NCBI GenBank assembly: GCA_019751945.1
Contig: JAIEMT010000018.1
Location: forward strand, 1-64,000
DNA length: 64,000 nt
Reading direction: 5' to 3'
From: a bacterium
GTDB taxonomy: Bacteria > Bdellovibrionota > UBA1018
Part shown: positions 3,833-61,657 of the stretch, one piece after another
Position numbering within the stretch: position 1 is the first letter of the stretch
Layout of the letters: each line of letters begins with the position of its first letter
Program-made: the position numbers and the translations under genes
Notes under the pieces: model-generated
What the model saw: the letters and a program-made list of their open reading frames with translations, nothing else
What the model was told of the DNA's origin: nothing
The model's database searches: none

Positions 3833-3861
3833 ATGCTTCCTTGTTTATCAGACTGTAAATA

Positions 3862-4282
3862 ATTGGCAAGGAACTGTAAGCCGGGTTCTGTCTTCATTGT
3901 TTCCAATGGAGGCGTTCATTCCTCTGGGGTCCGCGTTACCGCGAACCTCAAGCGTTCTTACCCGGAGGCTGCGACCAAGCGTGGTCTTTGCGAAGTCGAA
4001 ACTCCGCGGGCCTCCCTATTTGAACTTGCTCCAGGTAGGGTTTGCCATGCCACCAGGATCACTCCTGGCGCGGTGAGCTCTTACCTCGCCGTTTCACCCT
4101 TACCGACGACCTTGCGGTCGCAGGCGGTTTGCTTTCTGTTGCACTTTCCGTCACTTGTTTCACCCAGTACTGCAGTGGAACAAATGCCTGGCCGTTAGCC
4201 AGTACCCTGCTTTTGGAGCCCGGACTTTCCTCCAACGAACTCTTTTGACGGAGTCGCCAGCGAACGCCCGTTCCTTGCCAAA
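3862..4282 (-). ncRNA. rnpB: RNase P RNA, bacterial class A
   Basis: Catalytic RNA that matures the 5' ends of tRNAs. On the minus strand the hallmark GGAGGAAAGTCCGGGCTCC is at 4233-4215, and the conserved 3' segment ACAGAACCCGGCTTAC is near 3890-3875. The terminal P1 helix is explicit: the ten bases 4279-4270 pair perfectly with 3874-3865 (GGCAAGGAAC against GTTCCTTGCC). That bounds the RNA to about 420 nt; the ends are approximate. It starts about 4 nt after the stop of the zinc-ribbon gene and ends about 30 nt before speA, so it is embedded in a co-directional gene run. Small open frames over this interval are shadows. Confidence 0.95.
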
Positions 4283-12583: not shown

Positions 12584-12660
12584 GATCCCGTAGCTCAGTT
12601 GGATAGAGCAGGTGCCTTCTAAGCATCAGGTCGGGAGTTCGAATCTCTCCGGGATCGCCA
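12584..12660 (+). tRNA. tRNA-Arg (anticodon TCT)
   Basis: A complete 77-nt cloverleaf can be drawn. The acceptor GATCCCG (12584-12590) pairs with CGGGATC (12650-12656). The D stem is GCTC/GAGC. The anticodon stem GGTGC/GCATC holds the loop CTTCTAA with anticodon TCT (reads AGA). The T stem is GGGAG/CTCTC with loop TTCGAAT. Discriminator G and an encoded CCA (12658-12660) complete it. A -10-like TATAAA lies at 12569-12574 with no good -35. A long hairpin element begins eight bases after the CCA. Confidence 0.96.
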
Positions 12661-12663
12661 TCT

Positions 12664-12796
12664 TCCCTCTGCTCCCTCCTCCTTTATTTCTCTCCCAACC
12701 AGCCCGGGCAAGCATCCTTGCTTCTATCGCCTCCCTTCGTGGTCGGCTCTTTTAGGTCTAGTTGGGAGAGAAATAAAGGAGGAGGGAGCAGAAGGA
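12664..12796. repeat. long hairpin element E1 (31-bp perfect arms, conserved tip)
   Basis: Perfect 31-bp inverted arms lie at 12669-12699 and 12761-12791; with one mismatch the stem extends to 12664/12796. The 61-nt interior matches the tips of the two elements near 42.4 and 42.6 kb. Shared blocks are AGCC-GGG at the left, AGCATCC-TGCT in the middle and CTCTTTTAGG-CT at the right. Its first mini-hairpin is AAGCA/TGCTT (12710-12714 with 12719-12723), where the other copies have GAGCA/TGCTC: a compensated base pair. The second mini-hairpin is weaker than in the others. The arms share no obvious sequence with those of the other copies. E1 fills the gap between tRNA-Arg and the convergent AlkZ-related gene, where it could also terminate transcription. 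Confidence 0.85.
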
Positions 12797-12813
12797 TATT
12801 GTGTTGGGTGGGG

Positions 12814-13455
12814 TTAGATTGAGGAACGGTCCCAGAACTTCCGAAAGGCTGAGCCAGGGGGCATCGCTGTATCTAGGGTTGTTTGGGCTTCATCGACCGA
12901 CATGCCGCGTGCGCCTTCGACGAGTTCCTCGTAGATCAAGGAAGTGGCGGCTACGGCTAGGGAGGGGAAGGCGCCGTCTTCTACTTCGCCGAATCCGACG
13001 ATTGCTAGACGATTGAAGAGGGCTTTCATGGCTCGGCTGTAGACGCCTTCATTGTAGCGGCCTTGGAGTTCGGCTAGCTTTTTCAGTTCTTTGGTGGAGA
13101 GCGGGGAGTCTTGTTCCAAAATAGTGAGGATGGTTCGGGCGTTTGGGTCGGGGATTAGGCCGGCAGAGTTTTTCAAACGTAGCATGGCTTGAAAAAGGGT
13201 TTTTGAGAAAAAAGTTGCTCGGCCTTGGAACCATTTGGAATAGACGATTTCGCGGCAGTCGGAGAGGCGTTTCATCTGCATCCACATTTTAGCCACGCGG
13301 TCGTCGCCGTCTTCGGTCCATTCCCAACGCATTTCGGTTCGGGGGTGGGAAACGCTCCAGAGCGAGAGCGGCTCTTTTTTATTTTTTACCGGAAAAACGA
13401 GAAGCACGCCGTGTTCGTTGACCTTTTGAATGGCGCGCTGATCGGACGAATTCAT
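12814..13455 (-). CDS. AlkZ-related winged-helix protein (tentative)
   Basis: Protein of 213 aa without signal peptide. The motif set MRWEWTEDGDDRVAKMW, then VYSKWFQGRATFFS, then a basic winged-helix-like C-terminal half, recalls proteins annotated as AlkZ-related (relatives of the YcaQ/AlkZ DNA glycosylases). I am moderately sure of this resemblance from memory. The paired catalytic residues of true AlkZ cannot be confirmed here. It lies 3 bp downstream of the Omp85 gene and is the last gene of the long minus-strand block. Its stop codon is 18 bp from hairpin element E1. Confidence 0.5.
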   Translation of the reverse strand: MNSSDQRAIQKVNEHGVLLVFPVKNKKEPLSLWSVSHPRTEMRWEWTEDGDDRVAKMWMQMKRLSDCREIVYSKWFQGRATFFSKTLFQAMLRLKNSAGLIPDPNARTILTILEQDSPLSTKELKKLAELQGRYNEGVYSRAMKALFNRLAIVGFGEVEDGAFPSLAVAATSLIYEELVEGARGMSVDEAQTTLDTAMPPGSAFRKFWDRSSI

Positions 13456-41044: not shown

Positions 41045-41935
41045 CTACCCTAAAAGAATCAATCGAGCTGCCTGGAGGTCTTGCTCAATCTGATTCTTAA
41101 GAGCCTGCGGGCCTTCGAATTTCTGTTCGGGTCGGATGAAATCAAAAAACTTCACGTCCACATCCGATCCGTACAGATCTTTCGAAAGGTCCAAAAGGTG
41201 AGTCTCAATGAGAATCTCCGGCTCATGAGACTCAAATGTCGGGCGGATGCCAATGTTTGTAACGCTGGGTAGGTCCGCTCCTTCGTTCAGCTGAGTCCGG
41301 GTTGCATATACACCATAAGGCAAGATGAGTTTCCCATCTTCGGGTCTGAGGTTTGCAGTAGGGAATCCGATGGTTCTTCCTCGGCCCGCGCCTTTCATCA
41401 CAATGCCGTGATATCGAAATTCATGTCCCAAAAGCCGATTTGCAGCACGTATCTCTCGCGCCTGAAGATGTTTGCGAATCGCAGTACTGGAAACCGTCTC
41501 TCCATCTCTCTGAAAAGGAGGGACGATTTCCAGGCTCACTCCATTTTTTTCACAAAGTTTTGCAAGGACATCGAGATGGCCGGTTCTTTCTTTTCCAAAC
41601 GCAAAGTCGTGGCCCACCACAATGTGCGAGGCATGCAATCTTTCCATCAACGTTTTATTGAAGAATTCTTCAGGCGTGAGGGTGGAGAATTCGCGGCTAA
41701 AAGGTTCTTCGATGACTTGCTGGGCGCCTTTCTTATAAAGGAGGCGAACTTTTTCGTCGTAGCTCGATAGGAGTGGGATGTGTTTTCCAGGATGAAGTGC
41801 CAATTGCGGGTGGGGCCGGAAAGTGAAGACAATCATCTTCAGACCGGTTCGTTGGGCTTTAGTTAAAGCCGTTGCCAGAATTGTTTTGTGTCCGAGATGG
41901 ACACCATCAAAATTCCCGATGGTCACTACACTCAA
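41045..41935 (-). CDS. ribF: bifunctional riboflavin kinase / FAD synthetase
   Basis: Makes FMN and FAD from riboflavin. The N-terminal FAD synthetase half has the nucleotidyl-transferase motif GNFDGVHLGHKTIL (residues 7-20) and the second site SSTAIRKHL. The C-terminal flavokinase half has GAGRGRTIGFPTANL and the YGVYATRT segment. Length 296 aa is normal. The start is a TTG at 41935 that overlaps the stop of the cysteine-cluster gene in TTGA. Tight coupling to a cysteine-cluster gene may only reflect operon packing. Confidence 0.95.
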   Translation of the reverse strand: MSVVTIGNFDGVHLGHKTILATALTKAQRTGLKMIVFTFRPHPQLALHPGKHIPLLSSYDEKVRLLYKKGAQQVIEEPFSREFSTLTPEEFFNKTLMERLHASHIVVGHDFAFGKERTGHLDVLAKLCEKNGVSLEIVPPFQRDGETVSSTAIRKHLQAREIRAANRLLGHEFRYHGIVMKGAGRGRTIGFPTANLRPEDGKLILPYGVYATRTQLNEGADLPSVTNIGIRPTFESHEPEILIETHLLDLSKDLYGSDVDVKFFDFIRPEQKFEGPQALKNQIEQDLQAARLILLG

Positions 41936-42288
41936 GCGCGGCTCTCTGCTTTCTTGAATGTAAATCCACAGGTGTCGACTTCAGAATCAATTGCGTCGAA
42001 CGGATAGTTACGGCAGTTGGCCGGGCGGAGGTCTCCGTAGATCCGGCAGTAGGGCAGGTTCTGTCCATCGCGGCCTAAGAAGGGGCATTTGTAAATGAGC
42101 TCGCAGCAAAGTCCGCAGCGATGGCAATCGCCTTGGCGGGTGTCTTGGATGGCTTGTTGGATATAGTCTTGGCGGAAGGTACCCAAATAGAAACGGCGCC
42201 ACTTTCTTAGGAATTGCCCCAAGAAAGTCCGTGCACCAATATTTCTGTCGTACCAGGCTTTGAGTGCTGCCATCCCCTGTCTATACAT
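41932..42288 (-). CDS. YkgJ-type cysteine cluster protein
   Basis: 118-aa protein with the family pattern CHRCGLCC...CPFL...CRIY...RPANCRNYP...CGF, up to eight cysteines for a probable zinc or iron-sulphur site. The biochemical function of the family is not established. Candidate starts are ATG 42288 and ATG 42273. The latter begins MAALKAWYDRN, the very segment that recurs inverted at 42475-42513 beyond element E2. The upstream region is entirely occupied by element E2, whose arm ends 11 bp before the ATG, so any promoter must lie in the hairpin or come from upstream readthrough. Confidence 0.85.
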   Translation of the reverse strand: MYRQGMAALKAWYDRNIGARTFLGQFLRKWRRFYLGTFRQDYIQQAIQDTRQGDCHRCGLCCELIYKCPFLGRDGQNLPYCRIYGDLRPANCRNYPFDAIDSEVDTCGFTFKKAESRA

Positions 42289-42298
42289 TATCTGAGAA

Positions 42299-42451
42299 TG
42301 TCCTTCTAGGGGACCTTTCTCCCTATTTTTAGTTCTAAAAAACGCGAGCCGGGGTGAGCATCCTGCTCCTTGGTCCCCGCATCCTGCGGGGCCCTTTTAC
42401 GGCTCGGTTTTTTAGAACTAAAAATAGGGAGAAAGGTCCCCTAGAAGGACA
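42299..42451. repeat. long hairpin element E2 (45-bp perfect arms, conserved tip)
   Basis: Identical arms of 45 bp lie at 42299-42343 and 42407-42451. Inside them a 6-bp stem CGAGCC/GGCTCG (42345-42350, 42401-42406) encloses two mini-hairpins: GAGCA-TCC-TGCTC (42356-42368) and CCCCGCA-TCC-TGCGGGG (42375-42391). CCCTTTTAC follows them. Only one base (G42344) is unpaired along the joined stem. The 62-nt tip is nearly the same as that of E3, read in the opposite direction, and related to E1. Outside the perfect arms, symmetry continues in decayed form: 42242-42264 on minus equals 42484-42506 on plus over 23 bases. Confidence 0.9.
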
Positions 42452-42458
42452 CCCTCCG

Positions 42459-42517
42459 TGTCTAGGAAAGGGGGACGGCAGTGCTCAAAGCCTGGTACGA
42501 CAGAAACATCGGCGACG
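42459..42517 (+). pseudogene. inverted fragment of the cysteine-cluster gene 5' end
   Basis: Reading on plus, codons from 42475 give T A V L K A W Y D R N I G, against M A A L K A W Y D R N I G of the real gene on minus from 42273. A block of 23 bases is identical. Within the 13 aligned codons three changes are synonymous (AAT/AAC, ATT/ATC, GGT/GGC) and two are not; the ATG has become ACG. The upstream bases (TGTATAG/TGTCTAG) also align. It is a dead 5' fragment lying as a mirror image across element E2. Confidence 0.8.
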
Positions 42518-42537
42518 GAGGGGGCGTAGTCTGCCGT

Positions 42538-42574
42538 GCGGGGGATGCTGTTCATCTCGTTTGAAAATGGGTGA
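42538..42574 (+). pseudogene. inverted fragment of the glnN 3' end
   Basis: On plus, from 42539, the codons read R G M L F I S F E N G and stop, against R E M L F I S stop at the end of glnN on minus (42736-42719). ATGCTGTT-AT-TCGT--GAAA and GT-AGCGCCC are shared and run directly into the left arm of element E3. The differences include TTT/TTC and ATA/ATC, both synonymous. It is a mirror copy of the glnN tail across E3. Together with the other fragment it makes up the whole 120-bp space between E2 and E3. Confidence 0.7.
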
Positions 42575-42711
42575 GCGCCCTAGAGCAGGGAAGAGTTCTT
42601 CTCTCTGGGCGAGACATAAAAGGGCCCCGCAGGATGCGGGGACCAAGGAGCAGGGATGCTCACCCTGGCTCGCTCAGAGAGAAGAACTCTTCCCTGCTCT
42701 AGGGCGCTTAC
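42571..42711. repeat. long hairpin element E3 (33-bp perfect arms, inverted copy of the E2 tip)
   Basis: Perfect arms of 33 bp lie at 42575-42607 and 42675-42707. With G-T pairs the stem extends to 42571/42711 outside and a further GCGAG/CTCGC inside. The tip is the reverse complement of the E2 tip with about four changes. Its mini-hairpins are CCCCGCA-GGA-TGCGGGG (42625-42641) and GAGCA-GGGA-TGCTC (42648-42661). The arm sequence is unrelated to the E1 or E2 arms. The right arm ends eight bases after the glnN stop codon. Confidence 0.9.
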
Positions 42712-42718
42712 TTATTTC

Positions 42719-56728: not shown

Positions 56729-59200
56729 TTAAGGGGCGAATTTTCGAATGACTGGGGAGGGAATGTTCGGGTCTTGGTAACTCAGGTAGAGATGGTCCGT
56801 TGCGTCTTTCGCGAGCGTGATGAATTGTGGCGCACCAAGTGAAAAGCCTGCTGCTCCGAGGTTCCCCCAAGCGCTGCCATTCCACCTAATAACGCTCTGC
56901 TTGATTCCGTTTCCCCAGTCCTGGAAGGCAACACAGGGTGCTCCGGTAGAGTCGATCACTATCGATGCCCATTGAGCTGTGTTGGAGCTAATGCCCGCCG
57001 CACCCACGGTGACCCACGCGGCCCCGTTGTAGGTCATGACGGTGAGTTTATTTGCATTCATATTATCTTTATAAGCGATGTAAGGAACGTTGGTCGATGA
57101 GAGGGCCAAGGAACCGTGGCTCAGGAAGCCAGCAGTGAAACCGTCCAATCCAATCGTCACCCAAGCGGCTCCATTCCATCGTTGAACGGTCGCTTTTGAT
57201 GCGTTGGCGCCGTCGACGTAAAGAATGTAAGGGCGATCTGTCGAATCCATTGCAAGCACGGGTGAGGCAGCGCTACCCACTGTATAACCGGCTCCTCCTA
57301 AGGCAGTCCAAGCGGCTCCATTCCATTGCAGGACAGTACCTTTATTTGTAGCAGCCGGATCCGTATAAGCCAGGTAGGGAATGTCGTTACTGTCGACCTT
57401 AAGCGAGATAGCAAGAACGTTGTTGGCAGTAAGGCCTGCGGCCGCTCCTAAGAAATTCCAAGCCGTTCCATTCCACTGTTGTACTGAGACCTTTGAAGTG
57501 TTCGTGGCGTCTGTGTAAGCGACTATAGGTCTTTCTAAGGCGCCAACGTCTATCGAAATCAAACCTGGATTGCCGTCTGAAATTCCTGCTGTACCGACAG
57601 TGGACCAGGTCCCCGACGAATATTTTCGGATGGTCAGTTTATTTCCGGCGGCGGGATCCGATGCCGCGATATAAACGACTCCCGCAGGACTGACAGCCAT
57701 TCCGGCGTTGGCTCCTGTAGCAGTAATAACCGAGCTGTTTAAATCGACCCACGCCGGGCCTACTGCAATGGGGGCTGAGCACTGCGACCACCTTTTTTCT
57801 GTAGAATCGGAAACAGAGGTGATCAATCGGTAGCTAGAAAACCGACTTGTTGTGCCGGTGGTTGCGTCCGTCGTTTTCGTGGCCGATAACAAATTGATGG
57901 GAGATCCTACTGCAGTTCGGCAGAGCTCATCGGAATAGTATTGAATTTCTTGGTTGGATGCTCCCTTGGAAGGCGTCCAACTCGCGTTGAGGGTGGTGGA
58001 TGGACTCGGATTGCTCTCCGTCCATCCTAAATTCGAAGCACCTTTATCGGAGCGATAGGAACGCACATTGATTCTTTGCCCGCCTTGATAATTCACGCCC
58101 GCCACATAGAGTGTTCCGCTTGGGTCGGCAGTGAAGGTCAACCCAAAAAAGGATTCATGCGAGAGGCTTGCTCCAACAGTGCTCCAACCTGTCCCATTCC
58201 ATTTTTTGACCGCACCGTAAGGCAACCCACTGGAATAAAATGCGACGTTAAGATTTTCGTCGGCGTCAACGGCTAAAAGCACGTCGGAAGTTCCCGATGT
58301 GTCGAAAGGAGTGGCCAAAGTGGTCCAGCTCGCGCCATCCCACGTTGCAACGTATCCGGAATAAGGAAGCGGTCCTGCTCGGTATCCAAAGTAAATATTT
58401 CCGTTAGTGGTACGAGCAAGTGCAGTGTCCACGATCGCAGTGCTTGTAAATCCGGCTCCGCCTAAAGCCGACCAAGCTGTGCCGTTCCACGAATAGAGGG
58501 AACCTTTTCCTGATTGGGACCCGTCTTGAAATCCAAAGTAGAGAACACCCGCAGCACCCGGGAGGAGAGAAAGATTTGAAACCACATCGACCGTAAACCC
58601 TGCGCCACCAAGTGCCGACCAGTTTGTTCCGTTGAAGCGCATGACCGTACCTTTGTTTGCGTTCGCCACGTCGGTATAGGCCACCACAGGGGCATCCGTA
58701 GAGTCGATGACCAGACGAATTTCAGCAACACTGCCCACTGAGAAACCGGCAGTTCCGACGAGTGCCCAAGCTGTTCCATTCCATTTTCGGACCACCGCCG
58801 TGTTTCCGTTGCTCGAGTCACTGTAAGCAATATAGGGCGTGTTGGTGGAATCAAAAGCCATGCTATAGCCCAGTCCCCCTTCACTGATAGCAGTAAGTCC
58901 TGGAAGGCCGACGATTGTCCAATTCGTTCCATCAAAAGTGTAAACACTTAAGTCTGAGCCCACAGCATTATCTGAAAAAAAGTAATAAAGTTTGCCGGCG
59001 CGATCGACACCGAGCACGTAAGTGAGACCGCTATTCGTGGCAAACCCCGGCGCTCCGACTAGATTCCAGGAAGAAGAGTACGAAGCTGCAGTCGCCGGTT
59101 GTGTTTTGCCGCGAGAGTTGATGAGCTGAACGGTACAACCAGACATCAGAAAGGACGCCAAAGCGAATGTTAAGGGTGTGAGGTTTTTAAATCGCTTCAT
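56729..59200 (-). CDS. surface lipoprotein with two repeat arrays (beta-propeller-like)
   Basis: 823 aa. Signal peptide with lipobox LMSGC, followed by CTVQLINSR. The rest is built of about 14 repeats of roughly 45-50 residues with the core WNGTAW-x-LGGAGF and DSTDxPYxAYxD. Seven or so come before and after a central fibronectin-III-like domain (about 360-460; SNPSPSTTLNASW, then YRLITSVSDS). Each array could form one beta-propeller, giving a two-propeller protein. The start is ATG 59200, overlapping the stop of the paralogue upstream (ATGA). The open frame further 5' is a shadow. The target or ligand is unknown. Confidence 0.8.
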   Translation of the reverse strand: MKRFKNLTPLTFALASFLMSGCTVQLINSRGKTQPATAASYSSSWNLVGAPGFATNSGLTYVLGVDRAGKLYYFFSDNAVGSDLSVYTFDGTNWTIVGLPGLTAISEGGLGYSMAFDSTNTPYIAYSDSSNGNTAVVRKWNGTAWALVGTAGFSVGSVAEIRLVIDSTDAPVVAYTDVANANKGTVMRFNGTNWSALGGAGFTVDVVSNLSLLPGAAGVLYFGFQDGSQSGKGSLYSWNGTAWSALGGAGFTSTAIVDTALARTTNGNIYFGYRAGPLPYSGYVATWDGASWTTLATPFDTSGTSDVLLAVDADENLNVAFYSSGLPYGAVKKWNGTGWSTVGASLSHESFFGLTFTADPSGTLYVAGVNYQGGQRINVRSYRSDKGASNLGWTESNPSPSTTLNASWTPSKGASNQEIQYYSDELCRTAVGSPINLLSATKTTDATTGTTSRFSSYRLITSVSDSTEKRWSQCSAPIAVGPAWVDLNSSVITATGANAGMAVSPAGVVYIAASDPAAGNKLTIRKYSSGTWSTVGTAGISDGNPGLISIDVGALERPIVAYTDATNTSKVSVQQWNGTAWNFLGAAAGLTANNVLAISLKVDSNDIPYLAYTDPAATNKGTVLQWNGAAWTALGGAGYTVGSAASPVLAMDSTDRPYILYVDGANASKATVQRWNGAAWVTIGLDGFTAGFLSHGSLALSSTNVPYIAYKDNMNANKLTVMTYNGAAWVTVGAAGISSNTAQWASIVIDSTGAPCVAFQDWGNGIKQSVIRWNGSAWGNLGAAGFSLGAPQFITLAKDATDHLYLSYQDPNIPSPVIRKFAP

Positions 59201-61657
59201 AGCGCAAACCTCTTCAGGATTACGGCGTCCGGAAACTGATTGTCTTGATAATAGAGGTAGAGCTGGTCGTTCGAGTCGATTTTGAGCTTCGAATTTGTTC
59301 CCTGTCCCGTTGAAAATCCGGCGGCACCGAGATTGACCCAAGCCGCTCCATTCCATTTCAGGACGCTCTCTTTGATGCTCGCGTTCCAGTCTTGAAATGC
59401 GACGTAGGGAGCTCCGGTAGAATCGCAAACAATGGACATGTTGTTGGCAGAATTCACCGTAATTCCACCGACCGGACCTATGGTCGACCAAGCTCCTGTC
59501 CAGGCTTTTACGACCAGTTTATTGCCGACGGTGAAATCCCGGTAAGCGATGTAGGGAACATTCGTCGGAGAGAGCGTCATGGTTGCGAAACCGCCGACAA
59601 CTTGTGTAGTGCCTGCCACCCCAATGGACACCCAGGAGGCTCCGTTCCAGTTTCTGAGCGTCACGAATCCCGATTCCACAGAGCTAAACCAGAGACTGTC
59701 GGTGGAGTCGATTGCTAGCGTAGGGGAGTGAATGGCGGCCGCAGTGAATCCTGCTCCGCCTAATGCGGTCCAGCTCGCTCCATTCCATTTCAAGACCGTT
59801 GCTCGATTGCTATTGGCTGTGTCTTGGTAGGTCACATAGGGAGCGCCGGTGCTGTCCACGGCGATCATCGGGCTGATCGTTCCTCCCGCTGAAATTCCTG
59901 AAGCTGAGCCAATAGTATTCCAAGTACTTCCGTTCCAGGTTTGGACGACAAGCTTAGAAACACCGAGGTCGATATAACTTACGAAGGGTGTTCCTAAGGA
60001 ATCAAAAGTAATGCTCGGAGATGAAGCTGTGCCCGAGGAAAATCCCCGTGTACCAACGACAGTCCAAGTGCCTGACACATATTTCAATACGGTGAGTTTA
60101 TTTCCAGCGGCGTAGTCCGAGTAGGCTACGTAGAGCGTATCGCTGAGGTCAATACCGATAGTGGCAGCCGTTACCGCGATTTGCGAAATGGAAGAGGAAT
60201 CGGAGACCGGGATCCAGCCCGGGCCCACTGCTATGCCTTGCGAACAGCGGGACCAGCGAACTTCTCCGGAGGAAAAAGTAGTTTTCACGCGATAGCTTTT
60301 TGAAAGTCCGGTAGATCCCAAGGTGGCGTCTGTATTGGTGCTAGTCGAAAGCAAGTTCACTAGGACGCCTGAAGCGAGATAACAGGATTCATCCGCGTAA
60401 TATTGAATTTCTTGGTTTGACGCCGAAGATCCCGTTGATGCGCTCCAGTTAGCGTTCAAGGTCGTAGACGGCGAGGGGTTCGACTCCTGCCAATTCAAGG
60501 ACCGGGCGGCATAGTCCTTTCCATAACTCATGGCTGAAAGCGTGTTGTTCACGCTGCTCACGTAAGCGACGGATATCGTGTCATCCGGTGCAACGACGAT
60601 GTTGGGACGAACAATTCTATTCTCTGCGAATTGACTTGATCCTACTGCTGTCCACGTAGAACCTGTCCATCTTTGAACAATGCTTCGGGTATACCCATTT
60701 GAGAACAGCACGCTCAAGAGATTTTCCGAAGAGTCGAGCGCGAGCTGAACAAATCCCCCTCCGGTAGAATCCAAAGGCGCTCCGCCCAGAGTGCTCCAAC
60801 TCACCCCATCCCACTTCGCAACATGGGTGAGGGAGCTTGATTCGCTATAACTGGCGTACAGGGTTCCGTCGGAGGTGCGAATCAAGTCATTAAAGGAGAT
60901 GAGGGCGCCAGAGAAATTTGCCGACCCCACGTAATTCCAGGTGGTTCCGTTCCAGTGCATGACCGATGCGCCCGTGGAGTCTTTGAACCCAAAATAAAGT
61001 TCTCCAGAAGGACCTGGAATCAGTTTCGTGTCGAAGGAAATATTGGAAGTGGTAAAGCCTGCTCCCCCCTAAGGCGACCCAGTTAGTACCGTCAAATCGC
61101 ATCACGGTGCCTTTGCTTCCGTTGAGGATGTCGGTGTAGCCCAGAACCGGAGCTCCCGTGGAATCGATCGTGAGTGTAATGTTGGAAGCTGCTCCAGCTG
61201 AAAACGAAGCGCTGCCAACTAAAACCCAGTTCGTGCCGTTCCATTTCATTACTGATGTTTTTTGTGAGTCTGAGAGATTTACAAATCCGACGTAGGGAAC
61301 ATCCGAGGAGTCTATCTTGATGACGACTTGAGATGCGACCCCCCCAGAGAATCCTGCTATTCCTAGAGGAGTCCATTCCGTTCCATCGCTTGTATAAACA
61401 CTTGCATACCCGGTCGAAGCGGCGGCATCTGAGAAAGCAAAATAGAGTTTGCCAGTCGAGTCTACGGCGAGCGAGTTCGTTCCGTATTGCAAAGTTTTGA
61501 AATTCGGTTGACCCACATAGTTCCATGAAAAAACGGAAGTACTCGTGGAAGTGGTTGTACTCAACTTCCGAGAATTGATCAGCTGGAGCGTGCAAGCTGG
61601 CAGAATTAAGCTGAGTAAGGTGGCTTGTGCCACCCTGCGAATACGTTCCACACCCAT
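59197..61657 (-). pseudogene. paralogous repeat lipoprotein interrupted by a frameshift
   Basis: Same plan as the preceding lipoprotein: lipobox LPAC then CTLQLINSR, N-terminal repeats (MKWNGTNWVLVGSASF), a central FN3-like domain (SNPSPSTTLNANW) and C-terminal repeats. The reading frame breaks in a run of six Gs on the minus strand (61069-61064). Upstream, WVALGG continues as a short nonsense tail; one base fewer would restore LGGAGFTTSNIS and join the 5' part (61657-61064) to the 3' part. This may be decay, a sequencing or assembly error, or a phase-variable homopolymer. The 3' part remains open to the stop at 59197 and overlaps the next gene by four bases. An intact version would be about 819 aa. 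Confidence 0.8.

Follow-up and report, generated by a model that had tools for sequence, protein, structure and literature searches.

A family of dispersed hairpins with a conserved core and site-specific arms, probably shaped by fold-back copying of adjacent DNA

The gap between a tRNA-Arg gene and a convergent AlkZ-related gene in the window (the whole stretch of 64,000 nucleotides that we analysed) is filled by a hairpin, here called E1, that recurs in its genome with a common T-shaped core and with arms that differ from site to site. On balance we think it probable that the family is a non-autonomous, formerly mobile hairpin, and that the flank next to an inserted copy was then duplicated by fold-back synthesis (template switching). 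Insertion mechanisms leave footprints, and the footprint here is an inverted copy of the flank. To our knowledge this is the insertion footprint of no described bacterial element, and none of the titles and abstract openings listed in our searches of the openly available literature describes such an element family. It is possible, though we advance this only tentatively, that we are dealing with mobile DNA of a new kind: a hairpin, T-shaped and self-priming, that would insert beside gene and tRNA ends and copy the neighbouring chromosome backwards instead of duplicating its target directly, its arms being grown from its own site.

Results

Anatomy of E1

Repeat search, folding and extension alignment place the whole E1 hairpin at 12664-12796 on the plus strand, with arms at 12664-12705 and 12755-12796. 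Its 5' neighbour is tRNA-Arg(tct) (12584-12660, plus strand; ARAGORN and Rfam RF00005). On the other side lies the AlkZ-related gene (12814-13455, minus strand; ORF list and Pfam PF24741, E 7.9e-17), with 17 bases between the arm end and the stop of this opposing ORF. In the repeat search the arms were 42 nt long and 93% complementary, with 49 nt between them. These coordinates and distances bear out the original prediction that E1 fills the whole gap; it is a near-perfect inverted repeat. The further statement that the arms start eight bases after the CCA agrees with a base-by-base reading, in which the uninterrupted outer part of the arm begins at 12668, eight bases past the CCA of tRNA-Arg. 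All three elements of the window had been said to abut gene ends; this stands for the distances at E1, but the element at 42.29-42.46 kb adjoins the start, not the end, of a minus-strand ORF (41932-42288). The folding energy of E1 has a z-score of -9.51 on the plus strand and -12.45 on the minus strand, and none of 200 shuffles was as low on either strand. No Rfam family scored above its gathering score at E1, and at E≤1 only microRNA-precursor models appeared, below their cut-offs.

A search of the own genome with the gap matched its inner 93-101 bases to three other places at 90-98% identity, and gave shorter or weaker matches at more. The portion of E1 common to other copies (12684-12776, plus strand; positions 24-116 of the 153-base query) is 98% identical to the copy C4:44370 and 91% identical to C5:125795. 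The outer ~20 nt of each arm are absent from both of these copies, yet they are mirrored within E1, and we infer that these site-specific 20 nt come from the target. Very short arm matches (14-22 nt) elsewhere in the genome, including L019 and L020, are probably due to chance. Between the arms, alignment and pair counts define two small hairpins on the plus strand, P2 at 12710-12723, with ATCC in its loop, and P3 at 12729-12747. They are followed, between P3 and the 3' arm, by TTTTA (12750-12754, plus strand), which is invariant or nearly so in the first 15 aligned cores and variable in some relatives.

A family with a conserved core

Fifteen aligned cores define a unit of ~89 nt that forms a three-way junction of the arm stem, P2 (with the loop ATCC in most) and P3, followed in most by CTTTTA. 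Using a first covariance model, we found 33 full-length copies in the window's own genome (G000), with E-values from 6.4e-23 to 1.0e-15; 15 of these 33 were the training set of the model. The same model identified 5 carriers in 40 relatives at E 0.01 and, with the limit set at E 1e-4, 4 in the 55 genomes of the order. A second covariance model, run over 368 genomes of the phylum, gave eight carriers, all of one order. In this search the best 11 candidates were scored per genome, so that weak copies were missed, and 11 of the 33 G000 copies were among the matches listed. The cores of the relatives' copies are much changed, and their plan is the same. From 58 matches in seven relatives we analysed 51, leaving out G013:C415:380, G013:C64 (whose coordinates are those of the G022:C158 match) and G025:C18 (at a contig edge) and, as weak, G038:C121, G021:C57, G021:C33 and G013:C331:8560; the left flank of G030:C23:124348 was limited to 60 nt.

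For 48 of 52 cores the nearest neighbour is another core of the same genome, and the copies have therefore multiplied within lineages. In a midpoint-rooted tree of the cores, built on 74 columns, the genomes did not form clean clades, and the nearest-neighbour count alone was used. The whole structure had a covariation score of 0.83, compared with 0.17 for shuffles. Of five covariation measures, one (the number of further pair types) was not above the shuffles (451 of 500 reached its value), and P3 is paired in only 77%. A pattern scan of named genomes, which may exclude records close to the window's own, gave two hits that we take as chance because the covariance model gave nothing in either up to E 1. 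Four pattern scans of viral contigs gave 7, 0, 0 and 0 hits; of the seven, three scored at most 14.4 bits over a partial model and four gave nothing.

The CsrA consensus is close to GGA in a hairpin loop, and both loops of the core read GGA on the minus strand, which might accordingly be a CsrA-binding RNA. The motif CNTCCNTG (minus strand CANGGANG) is present in the core unit of 30 of the 33 own and 49 of the 51 relative copies, 53 of 55 genomes have csrA, and the minus strand is favoured among the non-Watson-Crick cells of P3 (4 A-C, 1 G-T). However, csrA is equally present in genomes free of the element and P2 has no strand lean (4 vs 4), all on small numbers. We consider this reading very improbable.

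Arm pairing and the outer mirror

In the own copies the perfect arm outside the modelled pairs has a median length of 29 nt (range 18-72), and the inner perfect stem is estimated at ~48 bp at the median. Outside the model the delimiting rule itself makes the arm perfect, and only the modelled pairs were therefore used as evidence. At the 12 outer of the 13 modelled arm pairs, the 33 own copies have 390 Watson-Crick pairs out of 396, with 2 G-T, 3 A-C and 1 other, and the 51 relative copies have 584 out of 612, with 3 G-T, 9 A-C and 16 other; these are counts from a covariance-model search, which favours paired arms. Three or four kinds of Watson-Crick pair occur at nearly every arm position. 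E1 and C4:44370, for instance, have the core and ~22 nt of arm in common, and beyond this point their arms are unrelated but each is self-complementary; three G030 copies have a longer arm in common. In an RNA stem under selection, tolerance of G-U is expected to exceed tolerance of A-C. Because the arms are nearly all Watson-Crick and G-T is not in excess, we conclude that they are made by DNA copying rather than by RNA selection. Arms that are tied to their site and internally perfect are the expected trace of copying one side from the other.

Beyond the perfect arm, an outer mirror was significant (p<0.01 against the flanks of other copies) in 10 of the 33 own and 8 of the 51 relative copies; all ten own cases belong to close pairs except C13:75830. 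In the other 23 own copies, E1 among them, it was not significant. The original prediction of little mirrored flank at E1, unlike at 42.4 kb, was thus correct: with the flanks of other copies as comparison, p was 0.09 for E1 and 0.0009 and 0.0028 for the 42.4-kb copies. Twelve copies have a tRNA on their 5' side; in ten of these the mirror enters the tRNA by 7-34 nt, and in E1 and C11 it stops 3 nt short. In coding flanks the differences fall evenly over the codon positions (25/174, 36/171 and 34/171), which indicates that one side is the gene and the other a decaying non-coding copy; a codon-position bias that had been apparent by eye was absent on counting.

The mirror is also polar. When ORFs of at least 140 aa and tRNAs were counted, it overlapped a gene or tRNA lying 5' of the core in 21 of the 33 own copies and one lying 3' of it in three, C15 being in both groups. 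Two of the 3'-side cases, C61 and C15, rest on ORF starts, and C19 (tRNA-Pro) is the clear exception. The opposite polarity of C19 would fit an inversion of the spacer through template switching between the arms, a process described in the available portion of PMC8604942.

Fold-back chimeras are likewise inverted duplications, and the assembly of this genome is a 71-contig draft. An assembly or amplification artefact is nevertheless scarcely credible in view of the conserved core in 33 copies, the ~20% of mismatched cells in the outer mirrors (121 of 610 in the own copies) and the same anatomy in other genomes.

Insertion sites

There are 35 tRNA matches in G000, 13 of which carry a copy. A sense tRNA 3' end lies 17-38 nt upstream of 12 of the 33 own copies, one further copy has a tRNA on its other side, and 20 copies are away from tRNAs. 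In the relatives a tRNA lies within 70 nt of 5 of the 51 copies, always on the 5' side. Several other copies lie 14-48 nt past predicted gene ends, and at least three (C4:44615, C9:42331 and C26:11345) lie beside predicted gene starts. The 13 occupied tRNA genes and the marks of insertion at E1 support the earlier suggestion that tRNA 3' ends are a favoured insertion place. A preference for intergenic junctions, also suggested, is borne out by the cores, which sit between genes with few ORF overlaps: just three ORFs of at least 140 aa overlap a core, namely two across the C4 palindromes (158 and 141 aa) and one at C70 (207 aa) with an uncertain start. Among the 22 tRNA genes free of a copy, 21 were examined (C19:11050 was excluded), and no long inverted repeat belongs to any of them; the best other stems at these loci have at most 13 pairs, and the Thr gene simply lies upstream of the copy at tRNA-Tyr.

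At tRNA-Gly and tRNA-Ala loci of G000 (L161, L168, L170) a short palindrome follows at once on the 3' side, with arms of 9-15 nt and a loop of 1-4 nt. These may perhaps be minimal two-way terminators.

The placing of the family copies just after tRNAs and gene ends, together with their very stable folds, would suit a two-way terminator or RNA-processing hairpin, in which selection keeps the palindrome because the folded RNA, from whichever strand, would stop or protect transcripts where genes end. Several observations make this unlikely. The arms have no tolerance of G-T, at least three copies lie beside gene starts, and two copies of the window, E2 and E3, lie inside a row of genes of the same direction. 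A pattern with 5 T and a loop of 3-8 finds no terminator-like site in 12661-12813 and a single one inside the opposing gene, and the core has only 4 T after P3 in place of the T-rich tail of a terminator. Moreover, 22 of the 35 tRNA genes have no copy, the 21 of these examined have no long inverted repeat in its stead, and arms that copy the neighbouring gene would be left unexplained. Whatever barrier effect the elements may have, the original suggestion that they serve as two-way transcription barriers does not, therefore, account for the arms, given the lack of wobble tolerance, the copies at gene starts and the lack of a terminator site in the gap.

The use of 13 of the 35 tRNA genes is also compatible with a folded single-strand attachment site for a tyrosine recombinase acting at tRNA 3' ends. 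Integron attC sites, which are folded hairpins of variable stem sequence with symmetric RYYYAAC and GTTRRRY boxes, and the forked hairpin of some filamentous phages are folded single-strand sites of this sort. At 67.5-68.3 kb of G030:C12 (L051, L055), downstream of tRNA-Arg, two elements alternate with three direct copies of the 3' end of this tRNA (~19 nt), as such a site might lead one to expect. The family resembles attC in being a folded hairpin with a variable stem sequence; unlike attC, it has the symmetric boxes in only 1 of 84 copies. In addition, 20 of the 33 own copies are not at tRNAs, and only 8 of 84 places have a longer direct copy of the left flank on their right side, some of these copies being weak or due to a neighbouring element. 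We regard an attachment site as quite unlikely. The G030:C12 array itself has units of ~300 bp and a stretch with several small hairpins.

Close pairs

Six close pairs of copies occur in G000, 147-204 bp apart and all convergent; when the relatives are included, 7 of 8 pairs less than 300 bp apart are convergent. Their layout can be written as a-E-a'-b'-E'-b, where a' and b' are inverted copies of the flanking ends. Mirrored gene ends make up most of the spacer in C4 (142/154), C9 (152/177) and C26 (171/198); in C10 they amount to 176 against a spacer of 169 and overlap, and in C69 (88/204) and C28 (91/147) the share is lower. We considered and rejected an origin of both pair members from one event: as judged by eye, the partners carry differing cores, which favours two insertions. 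A wider arrangement occurs at 4.9-6.2 kb of G000:C2 (L074 1943-3155), where two convergent copies lie 1 kb apart around an ORF of 267 aa, the far copy being flanked by a possible tRNA-Lys 3'-end fragment (a weak match).

The E2/E3 locus and an empty site

E2 (42294-42456, plus strand; model match 42331-42419) and its convergent partner E3 (42565-42717, minus strand; model match 42597-42685), both also delimited by repeat search, sit in a same-direction row of a type III glutamine synthetase gene (Pfam), a small gene (gene A, ORF 41932-42288) and a FAD synthetase/riboflavin kinase gene. The gene A start (42236-42277, minus strand) is the source of the outer mirror of E2, and its decayed inverted copy, 88% complementary, lies at 42471-42512 on the plus strand. 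At 42530-42566 on the minus strand (limits approximate) there follows another decayed inverted copy, this one of the glutamine synthetase 3' end. The junction of the glutamine synthetase gene with gene A is 430 bp long here and contains E3, E2 and the mirrored ends. In G016, a genome of the same taxonomic family in which neither model found a match, the gene order is the same and 50 bp separate the synthetase stop from the gene A start. The G016 junction is an empty site, for this one locus and not for E1. G024 also has the same gene order, with a gap of at most ~100 bp. Loci of 25 relatives were compared, and in most of them gene A or the kinase gene lies elsewhere or outside the examined flank. 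For E1 the comparison gave no empty site, because the AlkZ-related gene, found in 5 of 29 other genomes, in none of them has a tRNA inside the examined flank. Two features of mobile elements are thus seen in the family, 33 dispersed copies and one empty site in a relative.

Search for a partner enzyme

Within the order, 39 of 55 genomes have Y1 transposase genes. All 8 carriers gave a Y1 match at E≤0.001 (that of G028 below the curated cut-off), as did 31 of 47 non-carriers, a weak association. None of 11 Y1 loci (seven in G000, two in G030 and two of the three in G013) holds a copy of the element, the best E being 0.65. The search for reverse transcriptase genes was negative in 5 of the 8 carriers, among them G030, and neither it nor the Y1 transposase search gave a clear partner enzyme. 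Among the loci examined, HNH genes adjoin copies at two places in G030 and one in G028, and they also occur in one G000 tRNA locus and one G031 locus that have no copy. The HNH endonuclease-like genes of G030 (L057 309-905 and L065 412-1431) adjoin copies, and one of them lies between two convergent copies.

These results bear on a more conventional explanation, namely a MITE- or REP-type element of the usual sort, mobilised in trans by a transposase, in which template switching homogenised the terminal repeats and the flank mirrors arose as later side products. The dispersed, non-coding, intergenic and lineage-specific character of the element and the presence of Y1 matches in all carriers are in keeping with it. 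On the other hand, the terminal repeats are not conserved between copies, the examined Y1 loci have no copy, and direct target duplication is not in excess: with arm ends set by rule, direct repeats of at least 5 bp were found at the arm ends of 3 of 84 copies, against 2.6% in random pairings. An element of this type is improbable in our judgement.

Discussion

We favour insertion followed by fold-back copying, which may have proceeded as follows. The element would arrive at a DNA end or gap adjoining a gene, and its 3' end would fold onto its own 5' arm and prime synthesis on the upstream flank by snap-back or template switching. Because the fold-back end would copy the upstream flank, insertion would leave an inverted flank copy and not a direct target-site duplication. 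Further template switching through the hairpin would afterwards keep the inner stem perfect as the outer mirror decayed, and a second element inserting against the other gene would produce the layout of the close pairs. Homogenisation would be needed as a second process because perfect inner arms adjoin decayed outer arms.

Both processes have precedents. That template switching can create and maintain perfect stems is reported in the available part of PMC8794818, and the family resembles the hairpin mutations described there in having perfect stems that are reverse-complement copies of neighbouring DNA; unlike those scattered mutations, it has a dispersed, conserved core central to every palindrome. 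For E1, a Watson-Crick-perfect reverse-complement copy of adjacent sequence is seen in the arm only and not in the outer flank. In E. coli, a palindrome gives rise to inverted chromosome duplications via a hairpin route, according to the part of PMC3315005 available. As in those cells, which lack SbcCD and RecA, a replicated hairpin end would give a mirror copy of the flank; unlike those large duplications, the copies here are of ~20-100 nt and are tied to one repeat family.

Among known repeats, REP and REPIN sequences are short, dispersed intergenic hairpins, often in inverted pairs; MITEs and fold-back elements are non-coding, non-autonomous and intergenic, with inverted repeats; and parvovirus terminal hairpins are self-priming T-shaped folds of one long stem and two small arms. 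With REP/REPIN and the associated RAYT (Y1) the family has in common that its hairpins are short, dispersed, intergenic and lineage-specific, and with MITEs and fold-back elements all four of the properties just named. REPs measure 20-40 bp in the available text of PMC3733652; unlike them, the family has a longer stem, a core that forms a three-way junction, site-varying arms that mirror the flank and Y1 loci without a copy. From MITEs it differs in terminal repeats that vary between copies and in having no excess of direct target duplications. The likeness to parvovirus ends is one of shape alone, no virus or rep gene being known here. At least one defining feature of each of MITEs, REP/RAYT, attC and the Rfam families is absent. 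Should insertion and mirroring prove to be a single event, the 33 copies would offer a natural series for following fold-back DNA synthesis in a bacterium, for seeing how long perfect hairpins arise and for asking why 13 of 35 tRNA genes tolerate one on their 3' side.

Two other features of the window were noted. Minus-strand ORFs at 56729-60960 contain ten divergent 50-nt repeats, partly with a spacing of 147 nt; their only Pfam matches are weak ones to DUF6087, and by eye they resemble repeated fibre-type modules. Finally, Rfam identifies a class A RNase P RNA on the minus strand at 3861-4279.
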